Below, in pieces: positions 4,855 to 14,423 of a stretch of DNA of 64,000 bases. The DNA lies in contig CP000875.1 in the NCBI GenBank assembly GCA_000018565.1, positions 5,161,199 through 5,225,198 of the forward strand. Reading direction: 5' to 3'. Origin of the DNA: Herpetosiphon aurantiacus DSM 785. GTDB lineage: Bacteria > Chloroflexota > Chloroflexia > Chloroflexales > Herpetosiphonaceae. The notes under the pieces are model-generated. The model worked only from the letters and a program-made list of their open reading frames with translations, was not told where the DNA came from and did no database searches. The position numbers and the translations under genes were made by a program. Each line of letters starts with the position of its first letter. Positions within the stretch are counted from its first letter, which is position 1.

Positions 4855-5895
4855 TTAAATTGTCATTGTGCGTTGTTCAGCTGCACTTTGCTCGGCCAAC
4901 TCAATCAGCCGAATCACGCTTCGAGCTTGGTTGGCCTGAACGATGATCTCAGCCTTACCTTGAATGGCTTGTGCTACATTGCAATAATAGGCCGGATACT
5001 TGCCAGCGATGGTTTCGACTGTGCCACGCAACGCTAAACCATTCAGCTCCGTGTTGATCATACCCCAATCAGTTGCAGGTTCTTGGCCCCAATTTGGGCT
5101 GTTTGGCGCTTGGCCTGCTTTCAAGGCCGCTTCTTGGGGATCAATGCCATATTTGATCCATGAGCCGTTTGTGCCATGGAGACTGAAGCGCGGCCCCAAT
5201 TCGCGCACCAACATACCTGCTTTGAGCGTGACTTGCAACTCAGCATAACCCAAACACAAATCAAAATAATCGACCGTTTGCGCACCCTCACGTTGCTTGG
5301 CAAGCTGAGCTGTGATCGATTGGGGCATGCCAAATAACACCAAGGCTTGATCAATCAAATGTGCGCCGAGATCGTACAAAATCCCGCTGCCAAGGCCAGC
5401 TTGTTCACGCCAAGCCGCTTGTTTTAGTTGCGGTCGATAGCGATCGTAATGGCATTCGTAGCTGACTAAACGCCCCAACCAGCCAGCCTGAATCACAGCT
5501 TGAGCAGTCAAAAAATCGCCGTCCCAACGTCGATTGTGAAAGACGCTTAACACACGTTGTTGCTCTTGGGCTAGGGCAATTAATTGATCAGCCTGTTGAC
5601 TATTGAGCGTAAACGGCTTATCGACCACCACATGTTTGCCTGCCCGCAAGGCTTGGGCTGCCAAATCGGCGTGGGTTTGGTTGGGTGTGGCAATCACTAC
5701 CAACTCTATCGCTGGGTTCGCGAGCGCTTCAGCCAGATCGCTGACAATCTGCACATGGGGATACGTTTCGCGGGCGCTTTGGCTACTGCGTTGAACAATC
5801 GTATGTAAGGTTAATTGTGGTTCGGCCATAATCAGTGGAGCATGAAACACTTGACTGGCCATCCCAAAACCCACCAAAGCCAGATTAATTGGCAT
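4855..5895 (-). CDS. Gfo/Idh/MocA-family NAD(P)-dependent oxidoreductase
   Basis: A 346-residue soluble dehydrogenase. The N-terminal Rossmann fold (LALVGFGMASQVFHAPLI) is followed by the family's VVIATPNQTHADLAAQAL segment and the catalytic-lysine motif GKHVVVDKPF. The C-terminal alpha/beta domain includes GSGILYDLGAHLIDQAL. The family oxidises or reduces sugars, inositols and similar compounds; the substrate cannot be told from sequence. The ATG at 5895 has GGAGG 6 bases upstream; a TTG at 5907 overlaps that site and was rejected. It is the last gene of an operon, 14 bases after the Thg1-like gene. Confidence 0.92.
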   Translation of the reverse strand: MPINLALVGFGMASQVFHAPLIMAEPQLTLHTIVQRSSQSARETYPHVQIVSDLAEALANPAIELVVIATPNQTHADLAAQALRAGKHVVVDKPFTLNSQQADQLIALAQEQQRVLSVFHNRRWDGDFLTAQAVIQAGWLGRLVSYECHYDRYRPQLKQAAWREQAGLGSGILYDLGAHLIDQALVLFGMPQSITAQLAKQREGAQTVDYFDLCLGYAELQVTLKAGMLVRELGPRFSLHGTNGSWIKYGIDPQEAALKAGQAPNSPNWGQEPATDWGMINTELNGLALRGTVETIAGKYPAYYCNVAQAIQGKAEIIVQANQARSVIRLIELAEQSAAEQRTMTI

Positions 5896-5909: not shown

Positions 5910-6668
5910 TTAACGATCAAAGTGGCTTGCGAGCAAATTGCTATAGGCTTCGCGTTGCGGTAATTCAAACTCAACATGAATTTTACGTCGTTTGGTGAGC
6001 GTTGGCATTTGAGTTTGTGGATTATAGCCTTGGAGATCGACGGTTTGCCAATAGAACCCAATGCCGCGTTTTTGCCAGGCAACCAGATCGTTAAAATTGA
6101 TGCCATGTTGAAAGAGCAGCTCATTTTTTTGGGCAACCGAAAGATTAGCTATTTGCATATGGGCAGTTTGTGGATCAAGCGCTTGATCACGCAGGCTCCA
6201 ATAGCAATAGGCATTCAGGGCATTCCGATGCGCATCTTCCATGCGCCAGCGAAAATAATCGTGTACCAGTTGATCGGTCGGCAATTGGCAAATTCGGCAA
6301 TCAAAGCTCGCCTGTTGCTGAATCGCTAAACTAAAATGACCACTGGATTCGCCCGCCAAAATCGAGCAATATTTGCGTAACTTGCGGCCAAATACATCAC
6401 AACCATAACTCAGTAGCAGTGAAATCTCATCACTTTGGGTATAGCCATAAAGCACTGGAAAGCCACATTCCATCAGATGTTTGACCGTGCTGATCATTGC
6501 ATCACGAAAGCGTTGATCAAATGGACGTTGATAGTTCATAACATCTTTGGTGAGTCGGGTAAATGAACGTCCATCAATCCGCACTACCATCCAAATATTG
6601 GGTAATACCGCTAAATCGTTGCTTGTCTCATACACCCGCATTAACTGATCAAGTTGATCAAAATTCAT
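5910..6668 (-). CDS. Thg1-like protein (3'-5' RNA polymerase)
   Basis: A 252-residue member of the tRNA-His guanylyltransferase superfamily. These enzymes add nucleotides to the 5' end of RNA, in reverse polarity. The metal-binding carboxylates are present: Asp32 in VVRIDGRSFTRLTK and Asp80/Glu81 in YGYTQSDEISLLL. The C-terminal motif KNELLFQHGINFNDL...WQKRGIG is the bacterial form. Bacterial members mostly act as template-dependent repair enzymes for 5'-truncated tRNAs. The start at 6668 has GGAGGAG upstream and overlaps the kinase stop as ATGA. Coupling to a 5'-kinase gene suggests RNA end repair (inference). Confidence 0.93.
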   Translation of the reverse strand: MNFDQLDQLMRVYETSNDLAVLPNIWMVVRIDGRSFTRLTKDVMNYQRPFDQRFRDAMISTVKHLMECGFPVLYGYTQSDEISLLLSYGCDVFGRKLRKYCSILAGESSGHFSLAIQQQASFDCRICQLPTDQLVHDYFRWRMEDAHRNALNAYCYWSLRDQALDPQTAHMQIANLSVAQKNELLFQHGINFNDLVAWQKRGIGFYWQTVDLQGYNPQTQMPTLTKRRKIHVEFELPQREAYSNLLASHFDR

Positions 6669-7117
6669 TGCTCCTCCCAGGGTGTTACTTGAAATTGGTG
6701 GGCTGGTAATTGGCGAACATACCACAAGCGCTCAAAGCCTTCGGCTAAACTTGGTAATTCAAGTTTTTTGAATGATCCACGGATCGCAAGCTCCGGAATA
6801 TGCTGTTTGCCAGTGCGTTGGCGATTGCGTTCTAAACATGCTGCCAAATTTGATTCAAGCAGATAGCCTTCAATCCTAAAGCCTGCGGCCTGCGCGGCTT
6901 GAATATAGCCGGATCGGCGGTTTCGCTCAAGATTCATCCTATCAATTACAAACGATTGCCTAAGCTCTAAACAGCATGCTATTAATGTTTGTTCGCGATG
7001 CTGAGTACGCAGCATATCGAGATTGATGCGCACATGACTATGCAGAAATTGCTGCACATAAAAGGTCGATTTTCCGCTTGCTTGTAGACCAATTAGTAGG
7101 GTTGCCTGAGGCTGCAT
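6665..7117 (-). CDS. Polynucleotide-kinase-like P-loop protein
   Basis: A 150-residue compact kinase. Walker A is at residues 10-18 (GLQASGKST). A later IDRMNLERNRRSGYI matches the substrate-loop pattern (D-x-x-N-x(4)-R) of the T4 polynucleotide kinase/PNKP group, and an arginine-rich lid (CLERNRQRTG) follows. The family transfers phosphate to the 5'-OH of nucleic acids. It is the first gene of the operon and its stop overlaps the Thg1-like start. A 5'-kinase would supply the phosphorylated ends used in RNA repair. Without assay data, another small-molecule kinase activity is possible. Confidence 0.85.
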   Translation of the reverse strand: MQPQATLLIGLQASGKSTFYVQQFLHSHVRINLDMLRTQHREQTLIACCLELRQSFVIDRMNLERNRRSGYIQAAQAAGFRIEGYLLESNLAACLERNRQRTGKQHIPELAIRGSFKKLELPSLAEGFERLWYVRQLPAHQFQVTPWEEQ

Positions 7118-7390: not shown

Positions 7391-8593
7391 ATGGCAAAGC
7401 TTAAAAATTACGTAGTCTCCTTGGATGATGTGTCCACCGTCGAAGAACTCAAGGCCGCCTTGCGTGAACGGCGTTTGGTTGGCGTGACCCAACTAACCCT
7501 CAATGGGCGCAATTGGGGTGATGCTGTCGCGCATAGCTTGGCTCGCTCACCGCATATGGCCACCGTGCGCGTGCTTGACCTCAGCGAAAATCAATTAACC
7601 GATGAAGCTGTGATTGCCTTGGCGCAATCGCCCCACTTAAGCCAATTGCGCACGCTGCGCTTGCAACGCAACCAAATTGGCGATGCTGGCTTGATTGCCT
7701 TGGCGCAATCGCCCTACCTGAGCAACCTCAACGAATTAGAGCTGTATCAAAATGCAATTGGCGCGGCGGGTGCTCAAGCACTCAGCCATTCGACCAGCCT
7801 AACCCAATTAACCAAACTACGGCTTTATCGCAATCAACTGGGCGCAGCTGGCGGCGCGGCCTTGGTCGAAGGTCAAGCCTTGGTTAATCTCCAGTTGCTC
7901 GATATTGATCACAACGATTTGGGCGATGCTGGAATTAGTGCTTTGGCCGCCGCCCAACATTTGACCCAACTCACCTCGCTCAATTTAAGCAACAACAATA
8001 TTGGGCCAGCAGGGGTGAAGGCGCTGGCCGAAGATGAACAATTGGGCAACGTAACCCAGCTTGATCTCAGCGATAATGATGTGGGGTTTGCTGGAGCCAA
8101 AGCCTTAGCCGAATCGCCCTATCTGCGCAGCATTGTGACGCTCAATTTGGCCTCAACCAATATCGATGCTGCTGGCATTAGCGCCCTTGCCAATTCGCCA
8201 GTGCTTGCCAACACCGAACGCCTTGATTTGCGCTCGAATGCAATTGGCGATGCTGGGTTGAGTGCCCTAGCTCAATCGAGTCATGTCACTAATCTCAAGG
8301 CCTTGTTGCTCAACGATAATGCGATTGGCGATGCTGGAGTGCAAGCCTTGACCACCAGCACCAGTCTTGGCAATTTGGCGGTGTTGTATCTCGCCGATAA
8401 CGCAATTGGTGATGCTGGCGCAACCAGTTTGGCCAACACAACCAACTTGGGCCAATTGCAAGAGCTTGATTTATGGGGCAATCAGCTAACCCGTAGCAGC
8501 CAAGAAGCCTTTAGTCAATCGCCAACGCTGAATAATTTGGTGCTGCTCGATTTAGGCATCAGCGACGACGAAGACGAGGACGATATCTTCTAA
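7391..8593 (+). CDS. Leucine-rich-repeat protein (ribonuclease-inhibitor type)
   Basis: A 400-residue protein almost wholly built from about 12-13 leucine-rich repeats of 28-ish residues. Each has the pattern L..L.L..N.IGDAG..ALA.S..L, the RNase-inhibitor class also found in NLR sensors. The N-terminus is a short non-repeat cap and the tail is strongly acidic (DDEDEDDIF). It has no signal peptide or membrane span, so it is probably a cytoplasmic protein-binding scaffold. DNA repeats are diverged, so slippage is unlikely. It precedes a patatin-like lipase on the same strand, with a hairpin in the gap. Function unknown. Confidence 0.9.
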   Translation: MAKLKNYVVSLDDVSTVEELKAALRERRLVGVTQLTLNGRNWGDAVAHSLARSPHMATVRVLDLSENQLTDEAVIALAQSPHLSQLRTLRLQRNQIGDAGLIALAQSPYLSNLNELELYQNAIGAAGAQALSHSTSLTQLTKLRLYRNQLGAAGGAALVEGQALVNLQLLDIDHNDLGDAGISALAAAQHLTQLTSLNLSNNNIGPAGVKALAEDEQLGNVTQLDLSDNDVGFAGAKALAESPYLRSIVTLNLASTNIDAAGISALANSPVLANTERLDLRSNAIGDAGLSALAQSSHVTNLKALLLNDNAIGDAGVQALTTSTSLGNLAVLYLADNAIGDAGATSLANTTNLGQLQELDLWGNQLTRSSQEAFSQSPTLNNLVLLDLGISDDEDEDDIF

Positions 8594-8621: not shown

Positions 8622-8649
8622 CAGCATTGCTGAACATTGAGCAATGCTG
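8622..8649 (+). promoter_or_regulatory. Perfect 10-bp inverted repeat between LRR and lipase genes
   Basis: CAGCATTGCT (8622-8631) and AGCAATGCTG (8640-8649) are exactly complementary with an 8-base loop. A moderately T-rich stretch (TTATTTG, then GGTTTTC) follows. It lies between the LRR stop and the lipase start. It may be a partial terminator that tunes downstream expression, or a dimeric operator. Confidence 0.5.
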
Positions 8650-8684
8650 TTATTTGCTGTTGGTTTTCAAGCTGCGAGGTTGTT

Positions 8685-9812
8685 ATGGCAAAAAAAGCTT
8701 TGGTGCTTTCCGGCGGCGGTGGCCGTGGAGCTTATCACGTTGGGGTAATGCAAGCTTTGGTCGAACGCGGCTGGATGACCGATGGGCAAGGGCCAGATAT
8801 TATTGCTGGCACTTCGATCGGCGCGGTCAACGGGGCGGCTTTGGCCTCAGGCATGACTGTGGCTCAATTGCGCCAACGCTGGCTGCATATGCACTCCGAA
8901 GATGTTCAGCAGCTTTCAAGCGATCTGCCGTCGATTAGCCGACCACTGATGCGCTTTTTGCTGCGCTCGATTTTGACCTCTGACGAGCATGGCGGCGATG
9001 ATCAGATTGAGGCTGAAACGCCAGAGGCCGATCGCAATTTGCATAGCCCCAGCATTTGGCACAAATTTCGCAGCATTTTCAGCACCACACCGTTTAAAAG
9101 TTTGCTTGATACCACGCCATGGCGACACACCCTCAGCGCTTGGATGAACTTCGAGCGCATCAATAGCCCCGCTGCGCCAACCCTGCTGTTGACCGCCACC
9201 GATGTTCGGCGCGGCACATTGCGGGTATTTTGCAACCATAAACTTGATGGCCAAGCCCAAGATCAGCTCAACATCGAGCATATTATGGCTTCGTCGAGCA
9301 TTCCAGCGGTCTATCCATGGACTCAAGTTGGCGAAGATATGTATTGGGATGGCGCGGTTTTGGCCAATACGCCGCTCGGTCCAGTCATTGAGCATGCAGG
9401 CGGTGATGTTGAAATTATTGTGGTGATGATGACCCCGTGGGATGCCGACCCCAACGATGGCGATCAACATCTTGAGGCCATGCCCAGCGATTTGGCGCAG
9501 TCGTTGTGGCTAACGCTAGATTGGGCATTGTTGGCCTCCTATCGTGCATCATTTAAACTGCTCAAGGTATATAACCAAATTGCTGAGGCGGCCCAACGCC
9601 TGACCGCCGCCGCCGAAAAAACTGGCGATCAATCACTGCGCTGGCCGGGCACGATGCCTTATCGCGTAGCCGAGCCATTAGTGATTGCGCCGCAAAAACT
9701 CATGCCCTTAGAATGGATTGTCGATTACGAGGGCAAAAATCATCAAGCTTTGTTTGAAATGGGCTATCGTGATGCCCTCCGTGCTTTCGATCAACGCCAG
9801 GAGCAAGCGTGA
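8685..9812 (+). CDS. Patatin-like phospholipase
   Basis: A 375-residue patatin-family acyl hydrolase. The oxyanion loop is SGGGGRGAYHVG. The nucleophile Ser44 lies in GTSIGA, and the catalytic Asp is in the motif WDGAVLANTPLGP, so the Ser-Asp dyad is intact. There is no signal peptide. The middle region (about 100-170) is longer than in small bacterial patatins. The start is ATG 8685, with GAGG at 8676-8679; an upstream frame opening at 8637 lies inside the hairpin and lacks such a site. Its stop overlaps the folK start as GTGA. The likely role is membrane-lipid turnover; a link to the LRR protein is only suggested by position. Confidence 0.9.
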   Translation: MAKKALVLSGGGGRGAYHVGVMQALVERGWMTDGQGPDIIAGTSIGAVNGAALASGMTVAQLRQRWLHMHSEDVQQLSSDLPSISRPLMRFLLRSILTSDEHGGDDQIEAETPEADRNLHSPSIWHKFRSIFSTTPFKSLLDTTPWRHTLSAWMNFERINSPAAPTLLLTATDVRRGTLRVFCNHKLDGQAQDQLNIEHIMASSSIPAVYPWTQVGEDMYWDGAVLANTPLGPVIEHAGGDVEIIVVMMTPWDADPNDGDQHLEAMPSDLAQSLWLTLDWALLASYRASFKLLKVYNQIAEAAQRLTAAAEKTGDQSLRWPGTMPYRVAEPLVIAPQKLMPLEWIVDYEGKNHQALFEMGYRDALRAFDQRQEQA

Positions 9813-10291
9813 CCATCGTTTATTTAGCCATCGGCAGCAACCAAGGCGATCGTTTAGCCAACTTACAAGCGGGCTTAGCCGCTTTAGCTCCCGCTGTGCA
9901 ACTAACCAACTACTCAAGCGTTTATGAAACCGCAGCGGCCTACGTTGAAGATCAACCGCCGTTTTTGAATGCGGTGGTTGCTGGCACAACCGAATTAGCG
10001 CCACATGCGCTGTTAGCCTTGCTCAAGCAGATAGAGCACGATTGTGGCCGCCGACCTGGCTTGCGTTACGGCCCGCGCCCGCTTGATCTTGATATTTTGT
10101 TGTATGGCGAGCTTGAATTGCAAACCAATGACTTGATTATTCCACATTTGCGGATGTTCGAGCGTGATTTTGTGTTGCGACCCTTGGCCGAAATCGCCCC
10201 CAACCAGGTCAATGCTGAGCAACTTGCCCAAGCAACCCAAGGCAGCGTTTTAGCTGTTGTCTACTCAGCCAAGCAATTACAGGGCAGATGA
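9809..10291 (+). CDS. folK: 2-amino-4-hydroxy-6-hydroxymethyldihydropteridine diphosphokinase
   Basis: HPPK transfers pyrophosphate from ATP to 6-hydroxymethyl-7,8-dihydropterin in folate synthesis. The 160-residue length is normal. Motifs are LAIGSNQGDRLANL at the N-terminus, the central SSVYETAA...QPPFLNAVV and the signature GPRPLDLDILLYG with the metal-binding DxD. It starts with GTG overlapping the lipase stop (GTGA), so it is translationally coupled to an apparently unrelated gene. No other folate genes are in the window. Confidence 0.97.
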   Translation: MTIVYLAIGSNQGDRLANLQAGLAALAPAVQLTNYSSVYETAAAYVEDQPPFLNAVVAGTTELAPHALLALLKQIEHDCGRRPGLRYGPRPLDLDILLYGELELQTNDLIIPHLRMFERDFVLRPLAEIAPNQVNAEQLAQATQGSVLAVVYSAKQLQGR

Positions 10292-10296
10292 AAAAA

Positions 10297-13200
10297 TTAT
10301 TTTTTAGCGCGTCTGACCACAATAGCAACCATCATCGAGCCACGATTATCGCTCAAACAGACATCGGCACAATGCGCATCATTAATTCCAAGTCGTAAGA
10401 TTCCCTGATAGTTCGGGGCTTGAATGCTCGATTCTTTGCCAATTGCAAACTTCCAATCGCCAATTGAGCCAATTAATTGCCCATAATTTGCAGCTGGCAG
10501 TGTTGTCCAATCGTAATGCTGGTTTTGATACCCATCAGCATTAACGAATGGTAGACTATTCATATCAGTTGTCCAAGAACCTTTTTGAGCTATAAATTCG
10601 ATTGTATCGCCAGGTTGAACATAGATTGGCGTATATTTCCAATCACGATCAGCAGCAACCTCAACGACTTCACTAACAATTGGATTAGTTAAATCGGCCA
10701 CAAAAAACGTAATTCTTGTAAAGTCAGCAATAGCTCGCCAATCACCAGCCTCATCTTCAAACATTGGCTCTAGAAAATAATTACCTGGCTGATCATAAAT
10801 TCGGCTAGCCGTAAATGTATAGGTTTTGTATGGTTCTATCAGAATATTCTGAACTGAAGGAAAATCCATTGTGGAGGCACTCCAGCCTTGTTCTAAGACG
10901 TTAGGACCACGTGCCCCTGCGACTAAGTTTCGGAGTAAAGCTGGTTTAGCCTTATGGTTTCTTAAACTAAATGTCATTGTTACTCTTGTCCCGACGGCGA
11001 TAGTATCATAATTTTGGATAAAACGACTACCATCAAATAAACGAGTTCGCCAAAATTCACCATTCTCAGCTTGTTGATTAACTAAACGAACATCAACATC
11101 AAACCAGACTTTTGGTTGTGAGGCTACTTTTTCTAGCGATAATAAATCGGTTTTTAAAATAAATGTTATGCCAATGCCAAGCATAAATGCCATACAGATT
11201 AATGCTAAATTATATTTCTTGGATTGTTCTTTGACTTGAATATCTGAATGGAGCATTTCTAGCTTGGGCTTTTTAATTAATGGAGTTGCTTGCTCAGTTG
11301 ATTGTTCATGGATCAGAGTCGGAATAGCTATTTCCATTGGAATTGATAACTCGATTGTTGTACCTTGATCGATAATCGAACGTATTTCGATGATACCATC
11401 AATATTTTTTGTGCGCTCATACATCGTCATCAAGCCAGTGCTATTTTGTTTAATATCTTTATCAATCTCAAAACCAACACCATCATCAATGATTGACAAG
11501 GATAACATAGCATTATTTTTACTAAATGTAATATTAATATTTCTTGCTTGAGCATAAGCAAGGGTATTTGCAACTGCTGAATGAATAATCCGAAAAATAT
11601 CACGTTTTTTGTCAATTGATAGATTATTCCAAAGATTCAAATCATCTCTTGGTGGCATTTCCCAATGAAGTTCGATTTGTTGATGTTGAATAAGCTCACG
11701 AATTAGCCGATGAATTTCTGGTAAGAAATTCTTTTTTACACCTGGAATTGCAATTTGTTTTTGAATGATAAAGCGTTTCAGGATTTCTACTGTTTGGTCG
11801 GTCGAAGCTTTGTATTGAACAAGTCGAGCTTTTGTATCAGGTGTAATCTGATCAAACTCACAGATCATATCAATGCCAAGCGTAACCGAGTTTAGTTTGC
11901 CTAAAATATCGTCGTGAATAACATGATTGATATCACCAAAAATACTATCACGCGCCTTGATAATCCTTTGGATAATTTGGTTGATTAAGATTAACTGATT
12001 TTTCGCCAGCACAAACCAACTCAAATATTGAGTGATTAATCGAATAAGCTCATAGTCTTTGGTATCAAAATCTTCATTGGTAATTTTTGGCCCAAGGTAT
12101 AAGTATCCAATTTGATTGTTGTTATTGTCATACACAATTTCTCGATGTTTATAGAACTTACTGAGCGAGTTTGAAAACGATCCTGCTTCAGAATTGTGCT
12201 CAAAAAATAAATCAATTGGCTCGTTTTCCATAATATAAAAATGTTCAGATGTTTTGATAATATTCTTTTCGATCACAAAACGCAAAGATTCTATCTCTAA
12301 TTGCTTAGTCAAATAATCAATTGATGAGTAGATTGCTGAATGAATATCTTTAGTGATATCAAGATGGTTTAACAAGCCAAACAATATTTCAGCATCATTT
12401 TGATGGCGCAGGAAATATTTTTCAAATATTCTACGAAATGGGTTGTCGATATACCAGAAAATTGAGGTAATTACTGCAACAAAGAAGATATTGATAAATA
12501 TAATTCCATTAATTTCAATATAACTATTAATAAGGATTGAAATATCCACAATAACCGCACTAATCAAAATTATCATTAATAAATCTAAGCTAAATGAACG
12601 TTTTGCATGAACTGATTCATAACGTAATAGCGTAAATGCAGTCCCAGCTGCCGGAATGACTAATAGAAATAAGCCAAAAAATATTGATTTCCCGATTATT
12701 GGTAATTTTAAATTAAATTCCTGATACACAATCATCAATATAACGTTGAATAATCCACCTATTAACCAAGTGGTAAACGCAATTTTAGCTTGCAAAATAA
12801 TTTTCGATTTAGTTTGATGGCGATAGGTGATCCAGAGATATGCCCAACGAATTAATGTAAAGCTAAATCCGATGATAAATATGGTCGCAATGATATAGTT
12901 GGCTTGATTGGAAATTGTAGGAATATTACTTTTACCTGAGGCAATATTAATAATAACATAGGTATATAAAGCAATACTAAAGAGCGAAGGGATATACAGC
13001 ACATATTTAAACCCATGATAACGCTCAATCTTTACTGGAAAGATATACCCTAAATGAAAGAAACTTCCACCAAGTAGTGCTAATGGCACTACAGTTGCAA
13101 CAAGGGTAAGATATTCGCCAAAATCTGGTACTCTATGCCGAATACTTGTAATAGCTAAAGCAAGAAACCAAAGAATATAACCAAATACAATATTATTTTC

Positions 13201-13668
13201 CTTATCTGGGTTTGAAATTAATACAATAATACCTAGAATCCATAGTAATGCTGCGGTAAGGATGATTGCTAAATAGATTTGTAAAATATGATGAATACTA
13301 ATTTTTGTGATTGGTAGATAAACGGTAAACTGAGATTGATCGCGTCTAATTTCTACCGGTACAAAGCGATTAGCATAATCTAGCTCTAGTTTCTTCTTCA
13401 GATGATCAATCATTTCTGGCGAATTATAACCATAACCTGAAACACTGAGAATACAATCGCCTGGTGCAACAATTTCTTGGGCAATGGGCATCCATTCAGC
13501 TGGGGTTATAGCATGAATTTCATTACAATTGTTTATTGCAGACCAATAGGTAATTAATTCAAGCGCTGGATCATCAATCGTGTTTAAGCTAGTTCGAACG
13601 GAAATTGCCATTGAGATGACAACAAAACATCCAAAAAAGATGCTAATTACACGCATTATGTATTTCAT
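10297..13668 (-). CDS. Membrane histidine kinase with C-terminal lectin-like domain
   Basis: A 1123-residue sensor kinase with unusual order. There is an N-terminal membrane span and an extracytoplasmic PDZ-like segment (about 25-125). About ten membrane spans follow (125-405), then a GAF-like region (430-560). The dimerisation helix has phosphoacceptor His585 in NHVIHDDILGKLNSV (NarL/ComP type). The ATPase domain (690-780) shows NTLAYAQ, IIDDGVGF and TGLMTMYER. Another span (819-838) comes next, then about 280 extracytoplasmic residues whose last 120 resemble the PA-IL/LecA fold (IYVQPGDTIEF, NYGQLIGSIGDW, LRLGINDA). The gene is visibly AT-richer than its neighbours. It overlaps the response-regulator gene as ATGA. 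Confidence 0.85.
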   Translation of the reverse strand: MKYIMRVISIFFGCFVVISMAISVRTSLNTIDDPALELITYWSAINNCNEIHAITPAEWMPIAQEIVAPGDCILSVSGYGYNSPEMIDHLKKKLELDYANRFVPVEIRRDQSQFTVYLPITKISIHHILQIYLAIILTAALLWILGIIVLISNPDKENNIVFGYILWFLALAITSIRHRVPDFGEYLTLVATVVPLALLGGSFFHLGYIFPVKIERYHGFKYVLYIPSLFSIALYTYVIINIASGKSNIPTISNQANYIIATIFIIGFSFTLIRWAYLWITYRHQTKSKIILQAKIAFTTWLIGGLFNVILMIVYQEFNLKLPIIGKSIFFGLFLLVIPAAGTAFTLLRYESVHAKRSFSLDLLMIILISAVIVDISILINSYIEINGIIFINIFFVAVITSIFWYIDNPFRRIFEKYFLRHQNDAEILFGLLNHLDITKDIHSAIYSSIDYLTKQLEIESLRFVIEKNIIKTSEHFYIMENEPIDLFFEHNSEAGSFSNSLSKFYKHREIVYDNNNNQIGYLYLGPKITNEDFDTKDYELIRLITQYLSWFVLAKNQLILINQIIQRIIKARDSIFGDINHVIHDDILGKLNSVTLGIDMICEFDQITPDTKARLVQYKASTDQTVEILKRFIIQKQIAIPGVKKNFLPEIHRLIRELIQHQQIELHWEMPPRDDLNLWNNLSIDKKRDIFRIIHSAVANTLAYAQARNINITFSKNNAMLSLSIIDDGVGFEIDKDIKQNSTGLMTMYERTKNIDGIIEIRSIIDQGTTIELSIPMEIAIPTLIHEQSTEQATPLIKKPKLEMLHSDIQVKEQSKKYNLALICMAFMLGIGITFILKTDLLSLEKVASQPKVWFDVDVRLVNQQAENGEFWRTRLFDGSRFIQNYDTIAVGTRVTMTFSLRNHKAKPALLRNLVAGARGPNVLEQGWSASTMDFPSVQNILIEPYKTYTFTASRIYDQPGNYFLEPMFEDEAGDWRAIADFTRITFFVADLTNPIVSEVVEVAADRDWKYTPIYVQPGDTIEFIAQKGSWTTDMNSLPFVNADGYQNQHYDWTTLPAANYGQLIGSIGDWKFAIGKESSIQAPNYQGILRLGINDAHCADVCLSDNRGSMMVAIVVRRAKK

Positions 13669-14423
13669 CGATCATTCTCGGATAAATAGGCATAAATCGA
13701 GGCTAGGAAAATCAGGGTATCACGGTGTTCTTCGCGTTTGCGTAAATCTAAATATTCGTAAATATCATCTTTATAAGTTTGAACGGCATGGATTGAAAGT
13801 GATAAGGCTTCAGCAATAAATTTTGGCTTCCAAGCAATCAGAGGCACAATCCGTTGAAGATGATTTGGCATAGTTGGCAGTTGAGGAGCAATCGCTTTAA
13901 CTTGCTCGATCAGGCTCGTATCGATCATTGATAAGAAAATTTTGGTGGCCCCAACCAAGGGAATTTGACGATCTTTGCAAAATAAACGACTCTCACCAAT
14001 CCGCAGGGTTTCGAGGGCTTCACGGTAAATCGCAATTGATGCGCCTTTTTCAACTCCAACAATTCGTCCAAAGCCTTGTGCCCACAATTCAACGATGTGC
14101 TCAAAGAGCCAGCGATATGAGGTAACGACGATAATGCCGAGCCATGGCATTTTTTGCTTGATCTGCTGAATAACCTTGAGGCCGTTGGCGGCATCATTTT
14201 CATAACGCACTTGGTCGCGATATACCTGCTCGCGATATTCCATTGGCATCAGTAAATCAACTACGGCTAAACTCCAATCATTTTGATGAGTATCAAGTTT
14301 GGCAAGCGCCTCATTCACCGAGCGGGCTGAATCTATCGCATATCCCATTCGTTGAAATAGATCAATCGTTCCAGCCAAGAAAATCTCATCATCATCGGCG
14401 ATAAATACTGTTGGTATTGACAT
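13665..14423 (-). CDS. Response regulator with atypical C-terminal domain
   Basis: A 252-residue protein beginning with a receiver domain: acidic pocket Asp10-12, phosphorylation site Asp56 in VVDLLMP, Thr101 and Lys126. About 18 extra residues (MEYREQVYRDQVRYEND) follow the DLLMP loop and are absent from standard receivers. The C-terminal part (160-250) has a weak helix-turn-helix-like stretch (FIAEALSLSIHAVQTYKDDI) that resembles LuxR-type DNA binding but is degenerate. It is the first gene of the operon with the large kinase and is presumably its partner. A GAGGT site precedes the ATG. Confidence 0.85.
   Translation of the reverse strand: MSIPTVFIADDDEIFLAGTIDLFQRMGYAIDSARSVNEALAKLDTHQNDWSLAVVDLLMPMEYREQVYRDQVRYENDAANGLKVIQQIKQKMPWLGIIVVTSYRWLFEHIVELWAQGFGRIVGVEKGASIAIYREALETLRIGESRLFCKDRQIPLVGATKIFLSMIDTSLIEQVKAIAPQLPTMPNHLQRIVPLIAWKPKFIAEALSLSIHAVQTYKDDIYEYLDLRKREEHRDTLIFLASIYAYLSENDR

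Follow-up and report, generated by a model that had tools for sequence, protein, structure and literature searches.

Why should a bacterium keep a reverse polymerase of the Thg1-like family (Thg1-like protein, TLP), and why should the gene for a small kinase directly precede it? The question is raised by a locus of Herpetosiphon aurantiacus (genome of 6,785,430 bases in 3 contigs; nearest named relative in our genome scan, Herpetosiphon llansteffanensis), located in the 64,000-nucleotide stretch of DNA that we refer to as the window, where three genes are arranged head to tail on the minus strand in the order kinase, TLP, Gfo/Idh oxidoreductase. The kinase gene (6665-7117, minus strand), predicted to encode a PNKP-type 5'-OH polynucleotide kinase domain protein, is a stand-alone open reading frame (ORF) of 150 aa, with its ATG start at 7117 and its TGA stop at 6665-6667; the TLP gene (5910-6668, minus strand; 252 aa), predicted to encode a 3'-5' RNA polymerase, runs from the ATG at 6668-6666 to the stop at 5910-5912. 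The kinase stop and the TLP start overlap in the ATGA at 6665-6668, and GGGAGGAG (6671-6678, minus strand), located inside the kinase gene and directly 5' of the TLP start, may function as a Shine-Dalgarno-like element. The TLP gene is followed, after a gap of 14 bases, by the gene of a Gfo/Idh/MocA oxidoreductase (4855-5895, minus strand, ATG at 5895; Pfam GFO_IDH_MocA; NF008607 PRK11579 subfamily). The first-pass annotation of this DNA had described both the ATGA overlap and the third gene 14 bases on, in agreement with the coordinates given here; it had also called the first two genes "fused by overlap", of which the overlap stands and the fusion does not, the two being separate ORFs in different frames. 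Promoter and terminator scans returned nothing clearly above shuffles, and PADLOC returned no match for the kinase, the TLP or the Gfo/Idh protein.

Some features of the surrounding window are mentioned in their own right. A leucine-rich-repeat protein of 400 aa is encoded at 7391-8593, divergent to the kinase; at this place, other Herpetosiphon loci carry another gene, apparently (by eye) for a sugar-binding ABC protein, and the region has therefore been rearranged in the H. aurantiacus genome. A patatin-like phospholipase gene (8637-9812) and a folate-pathway HPPK gene (9809-10291) are oddly paired through a 4-base overlap (GTGA), and a very long ORF for a membrane-protein-like sensor kinase (10297-14423; 1123 aa, by eye) is overlapped by a response-regulator-like gene.

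The identity of the kinase is concerned with the choice between a polynucleotide and a small molecule as its substrate. The protein matches Pfam AAA_33 (E 4.8e-14), and its best NCBIfam match is TIGR01663 PNK-3'Pase (6e-11), below the cut-off and with the phosphatase part absent; against the whole multi-domain models it scores 41.4 vs 502.8 bits (TIGR01663) and 22.4 vs 750 bits (TIGR04075, bacterial Pnkp), and since both cut-offs are missed, the protein corresponds to the kinase domain only. Mouse PNKP is the first match of the single sequence (E 2.3e-8) and the best PDB match of a profile built from 49 relatives (1.5e-19), followed by Clostridium thermocellum Pnkp, fungal kinases, L-seryl-tRNA kinase and T4 polynucleotide kinase. 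The AlphaFold2 model (pLDDT 93.9) superposes on PNKP (1yj5/3u7f) with Z 18.6 (VIA) and rmsd 1.6-1.7 over 139-141 residues, with a Foldseek match to the PNKP fold of 3.9e-12; lower Z values are obtained for L-seryl-tRNA kinase (15.2), zeta toxin (14.8), T4 polynucleotide kinase (13.7), PFKFB (13.5) and gluconate kinase (13.0). The kinase is thus closest to PNKP, then to the C. thermocellum Pnkp kinase, above PSTK, zeta, PFKFB and gluconate kinase, and the polynucleotide-kinase-like identity given in the first-pass annotation is borne out. The P-loop (GLQASGKS) and the catalytic Asp motif (INLD) both align with mouse PNKP; among 77 paired kinases, D34 (the counterpart of the Asp in the NRD motif of mouse PNKP) and R101 occur in 77/77 and the P-loop Lys in 76/77, the otherwise common DNTN motif having drifted to D[RK]MN in Herpetosiphon. 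With the mammalian kinase domain, the protein shares the predicted fold, the P-loop, the catalytic Asp motif and a LAEGF stretch near the C-terminus; it differs in having neither phosphatase nor FHA domain, at ~25% identity.

Fold and sequence therefore favour a polynucleotide over a small molecule as the predicted substrate. The opposite view, that the kinase acts on a small molecule or nucleotide and that its placement beside the TLP reflects regulation and not a shared substrate, draws on a fold superfamily that includes zeta toxins, gluconate kinase and PFKFB, and on the stand-alone copies of the kinase that occur without TLP; we consider it distinctly improbable, as polynucleotide kinases are the best fold and profile matches by a clear margin, the overlapping coding sequences are kept across phyla, and RNA-repair families are found among the neighbours of the pair, as described below.

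The TLP passes the curated cut-offs of both Pfam families, i.e. Thg1 (1e-31; 110 vs 29.2 bits) and Thg1C (1.8e-13; 51.1 vs 26.3 bits); its best PDB match is 5axk (1.7e-27), human THG1 is matched at 1.6e-24, and its AlphaFold2 model has a pLDDT of 92.4. Residues D32, D80 and E81 of the RxDGR and SDE motifs, which we take to be the metal-binding carboxylates of the polymerase, are invariant in 42 relatives and align with human THG1; judging from its sequence, the protein is predicted to be a polymerase that adds nucleotides in the 3'-5' direction on a template.

The association of the two genes extends far outside this genome. The survey of bacterial TLP neighbourhoods that had been proposed with the first-pass annotation found the kinase upstream of the TLP in 72 of 80 loci, the best 80 of 540 relatives in a genome scan with the TLP, a sample biased towards the class of the query; 8 loci were without it, and among the 72 the kinase lies more than 500 bases upstream in two (L046, L062) and is partial in two others (L044, L031). 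In a phylum sample of 400 genomes, TLP occurs in 11, with the kinase beside it in 7; in a second phylum, TLP occurs in 4 of 296 genomes, all 4 with the kinase, these few cases including the centre genome, itself picked for its TLP. The coding sequences overlap in 78 of the 83 paired loci from all sources (by 11 bases in 60, 4 bases in 11, 14 bases in 6 and 8 bases in 1) and are without overlap in 5. A programmed frameshift that would fuse kinase and TLP was considered and is ruled out by these lengths, since the relative frame of the two genes differs between overlaps of 4 bases and those of 11 or 14. The pair and its overlapping coding sequences recur across many bacterial phyla, so that the pairing is not unique to this genome, and the arrangement is far beyond chance. 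Kinase and TLP distances are correlated (Mantel r 0.753, with none of 2000 permutations as high; r 0.55 when the pairs are restricted to less than 70% TLP identity), a correlation that is partly explained by shared descent, which alone could give part of it.

In a quick TLP tree of 116 rows, 12 phage and plasmid TLPs, all without the kinase, branch apart from the remaining 104, which comprise 83 paired TLPs and 21 with no adjacent kinase; unpaired phage and plasmid TLPs had been considered as possible broken pairs, and these 12 form a separate clade. The B. thuringiensis TLP (PDB 4kgk) is of the Thg1-like family and differs from the H. aurantiacus protein in belonging to the class of phage and Firmicutes-plasmid TLPs, with the kinase in 0/12 sampled loci: it matches the TLP of an unpaired-class locus (L112) at E 1.1e-123 and the paired-class profile at 5.4e-30. 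The best PDB match of the paired-class profile is 5axk; the paired class is without a close solved structure, because the bacterial structure in hand belongs to the unpaired class.

The genus Herpetosiphon itself reveals which genes belong together. Each of the 4 intact Herpetosiphon pairs found in the phylum sample is followed by the Gfo/Idh gene, as is the pair of L012; this gene adjoins the pair only in Herpetosiphon. It was found in all 4 genus genomes searched, including two without a TLP match (G078, G102), and at the same threshold in neither of the 2 genomes searched outside the genus. In G078, neither kinase nor TLP lies beside it; in G102, one in-frame deletion joins ~15 residues of the kinase to the C-terminal part of the TLP, and the resulting ORF of 158 aa begins like the kinase and is without the TLP polymerase motifs. 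With 2 of 6 Herpetosiphon genomes lacking an intact pair, the pair is dispensable; in these two cases, kinase and TLP have been lost together, with the Gfo/Idh gene staying in place. The suggestion of the first-pass annotation that the third gene may widen the pathway is thus not upheld: a Gfo/Idh pathway member was ruled out by its retention in G078 and G102 without an intact pair, and we judge it to be a bystander, outside the repair pair. The in-frame deletion remnant at L187:4886-5362, kinase start joined to TLP end, has its junction in an Ala-Ser stretch common to both proteins.

The family name of the TLP and the function of eukaryotic Thg1, as covered by the available part of PMC6471195, would suggest that the pair matures or maintains tRNA-His through the addition of G-1. 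Rfam gives 52 tRNA matches in the genome, and the 30 loci scanned contain one tRNA-His, in which G-1 is encoded, opposite C73; the TLP is therefore not needed to supply G-1 there. Since, in addition, sister genomes live without the pair, we hold this role to be highly improbable.

The reading that we prefer, with a probability of roughly 0.7, is that kinase and TLP form a two-enzyme module for the repair of 5' ends of RNA, most likely tRNA. A metal-independent ribonuclease or ribotoxin would cut the RNA, leaving a 5'-OH on the 3' fragment; the PNKP-type kinase would phosphorylate this end, and the TLP would then use ATP or GTP to activate the 5'-phosphate so formed and restore the lost nucleotides in the 3'-5' direction, with the other strand of the stem as template. 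The gene overlap may couple the translation of the two enzymes. The kinase partner makes it probable that the natural substrate carries a 5'-OH, and so points to damage by an RNase or ribotoxin and not to normal processing. Weighing against this reading are the kinases that occur without TLP, the 21 TLPs of the paired class with no adjacent kinase, the drift of the DNTN motif in Herpetosiphon and the dispensability of the pair.

In their accessible portions, PMC6471195 and PMC3701042 describe the repair of 5'-truncated tRNAs by bacterial TLPs in vitro; in the same portions, the word "kinase" has no occurrence in the former (a 2019 review) and one in the latter (2013), as a labelling reagent. 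The pair is a member of a published, predicted kind: as far as the accessible part of PMC2904730 (Anantharaman, Iyer and Aravind 2010) goes, this paper gives the kinase as the most persistent bacterial Thg1 neighbourhood, proposes the same 5'-phosphate mechanism, draws links to macro-domain and RNA ligase genes, and has Herpetosiphon aurantiacus among the organisms it abbreviates. The Thg1-polynucleotide kinase operon of that part of the paper and the pair described here are alike in the two families, their adjacency in predicted operons and the proposed mechanism, and the idea put forward in the first-pass annotation is not new; in the comparison with the same part, the present analysis adds the overlap statistics, the kinase model, the joint loss and the link to Pnkp, Hen1 and RlaP. 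Altogether, the present work contributes scale, the overlap, the two TLP classes, the joint loss and the tie to Pnkp, Hen1 and RlaP. Our literature search found the kinase-TLP pair as a prediction, in the 2010 paper, and no test of it. No macro-domain gene was found among the 20 neighbours scanned.

Several RNA-repair genes are associated with the TLP. In the phylum sample, the Pnkp ligase occurs in 10/11 genomes with TLP vs 34/389 others (by genus 7/8 vs 25/216, Fisher 4.7e-6) and RlaP in 7/11 vs 27/389 (by genus 4/8 vs 18/216, p 0.004), figures in which genome size and kinship are uncontrolled and 4 of the 11 TLP genomes are of one genus; the co-occurrence of Pnkp and TLP stems partly from shared descent and perhaps from large genomes. 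At least one of the RNA-repair genes searched for lies in the flanks of 13 of the 80 genome loci (best 80 of 540); RlaP does so in 7 of them, vs ~0.02 expected, a rough estimate that rests on a phylum frequency of 34/400. Pfam assignments of the neighbours place RlaP next to the pair or TLP in L032, L044 and L075, Pnkp in L075, RtcB in L023, NADAR in L080, and an RNA ligase, an HD plus AAA_33 protein and a NIF phosphatase in L050; a homology scan of the flanks adds RlaP (L023, L041, L050, L078, L108, L123), RtcB (L018, L059, L073, L078, L088, L090, L101; some on the opposite strand), RNA ligase (L072, L104) and Hen1 (L075, L123). On a Deinococcus taeanensis plasmid typed as mobilizable (L123:5235-10861), kinase, TLP, Hen1 and two RlaP-type nucleotidyltransferases are located within 6 kb.

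These neighbours also bear on a sealing role, in which the kinase would make a 5'-phosphate and the TLP only an activated 5'-App end that aids RNA ligation, a possibility that PMC2904730 itself raises in its section 6. In its favour, RNA ligase, RtcB, Pnkp or HD-Pnk adjoin the pair in some relatives, and the Pnkp ligase goes with TLP across the phylum sample; against it, the RNA-repair genes searched for are absent from the surroundings of most of the 80 loci (best 80 of 540), and the TLP polymerase acids (D32, D80 and E81) are invariant in 42 relatives. RtcB, moreover, is not known to use 5'-phosphate or App ends. We regard sealing without rebuilding as unlikely. RNA repair, for which the first-pass annotation had proposed the pair, is the most likely role, supported by the predicted fold, the conserved pairing and overlap, the correlated divergence, the joint loss and the association with RNA-repair genes.

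In the H. aurantiacus genome, a single gene run (C1:3.766-3.771 Mb) contains Hen1 (460 aa), Pnkp (854 aa) and an RlaP-like gene; Hen1 and Pnkp score above the NCBIfam cut-offs, and RtcB is also present in the genome. PADLOC matches this Hen1 to the model mad2 (mads_2; 1.1e-10). Like the bacterial Hen1-RlaP-Pnkp RNA repair system, the pair would heal and fill RNA ends; in contrast to it, the H. aurantiacus pair comes without its own ligase or phosphatase and is unlinked, with Pnkp at C1:3766471 and the pair near C1:5167-5168 kb, ~1.4 Mb apart. Linkage is seen only in some relatives: the Hen1-RlaP-Pnkp genes adjoin the pair in L075, and Hen1 and RlaP are also on L123.

The kinase is also found without TLP. 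Among 26 phylum genomes with a kinase match above 100 bits, TLP is absent from 17, and the kinase therefore has other uses; the strict dedication to the TLP implied by the first-pass annotation is not borne out, unlike its kinase identity, pairing, conservation and RNA repair role. In the TLP-less genomes, most kinases inspected are of a second subtype, with VSKDLL replacing RINLD, several of them beside a methyltransferase-like gene (neighbours named by eye); L137 has a first-subtype kinase without TLP. Pnkp is present in 10 of the 17, a hint that the Pnkp system may make use of the kinase as well. Among L137-L151, several second-subtype kinases without TLP are preceded by the same methyltransferase-like gene, and in L140 the kinase is followed by a nucleotidyltransferase resembling that of L011; these kinases are possibly a separate repair module.

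The link of the pair to the larger tRNA-repair toolkit looks less explored than the pairing itself. Our literature search found no paper that connects Thg1 to Hen1 or Pnkp in the context of RNA repair; the work of Burroughs and Aravind in NAR (2016), on RNA damage in biological conflicts, may already note some such links. The accessible part of a 2021 jumbo-phage review (PMC7824862) reports Thg1 as sporadic in jumbo phages and names Thg1 and RlaP in one section. We tentatively propose, as a possibility well short of an even chance, that kinase and TLP together act as the 5'-end arm of Hen1-RlaP-Pnkp tRNA repair, in which RlaP would rebuild the 3' end and TLP the 5' end, starting from the healed 5'-phosphate, Pnkp would seal, and Hen1 would protect the joint. 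If this is true, the gap left by a ribotoxin at the cut would be filled from both sides before Pnkp sealing; the co-occurrence with Pnkp gives the pair a concrete, testable setting, and what is at stake is the reason why bacteria that encode G-1 in tRNA-His keep a reverse polymerase.
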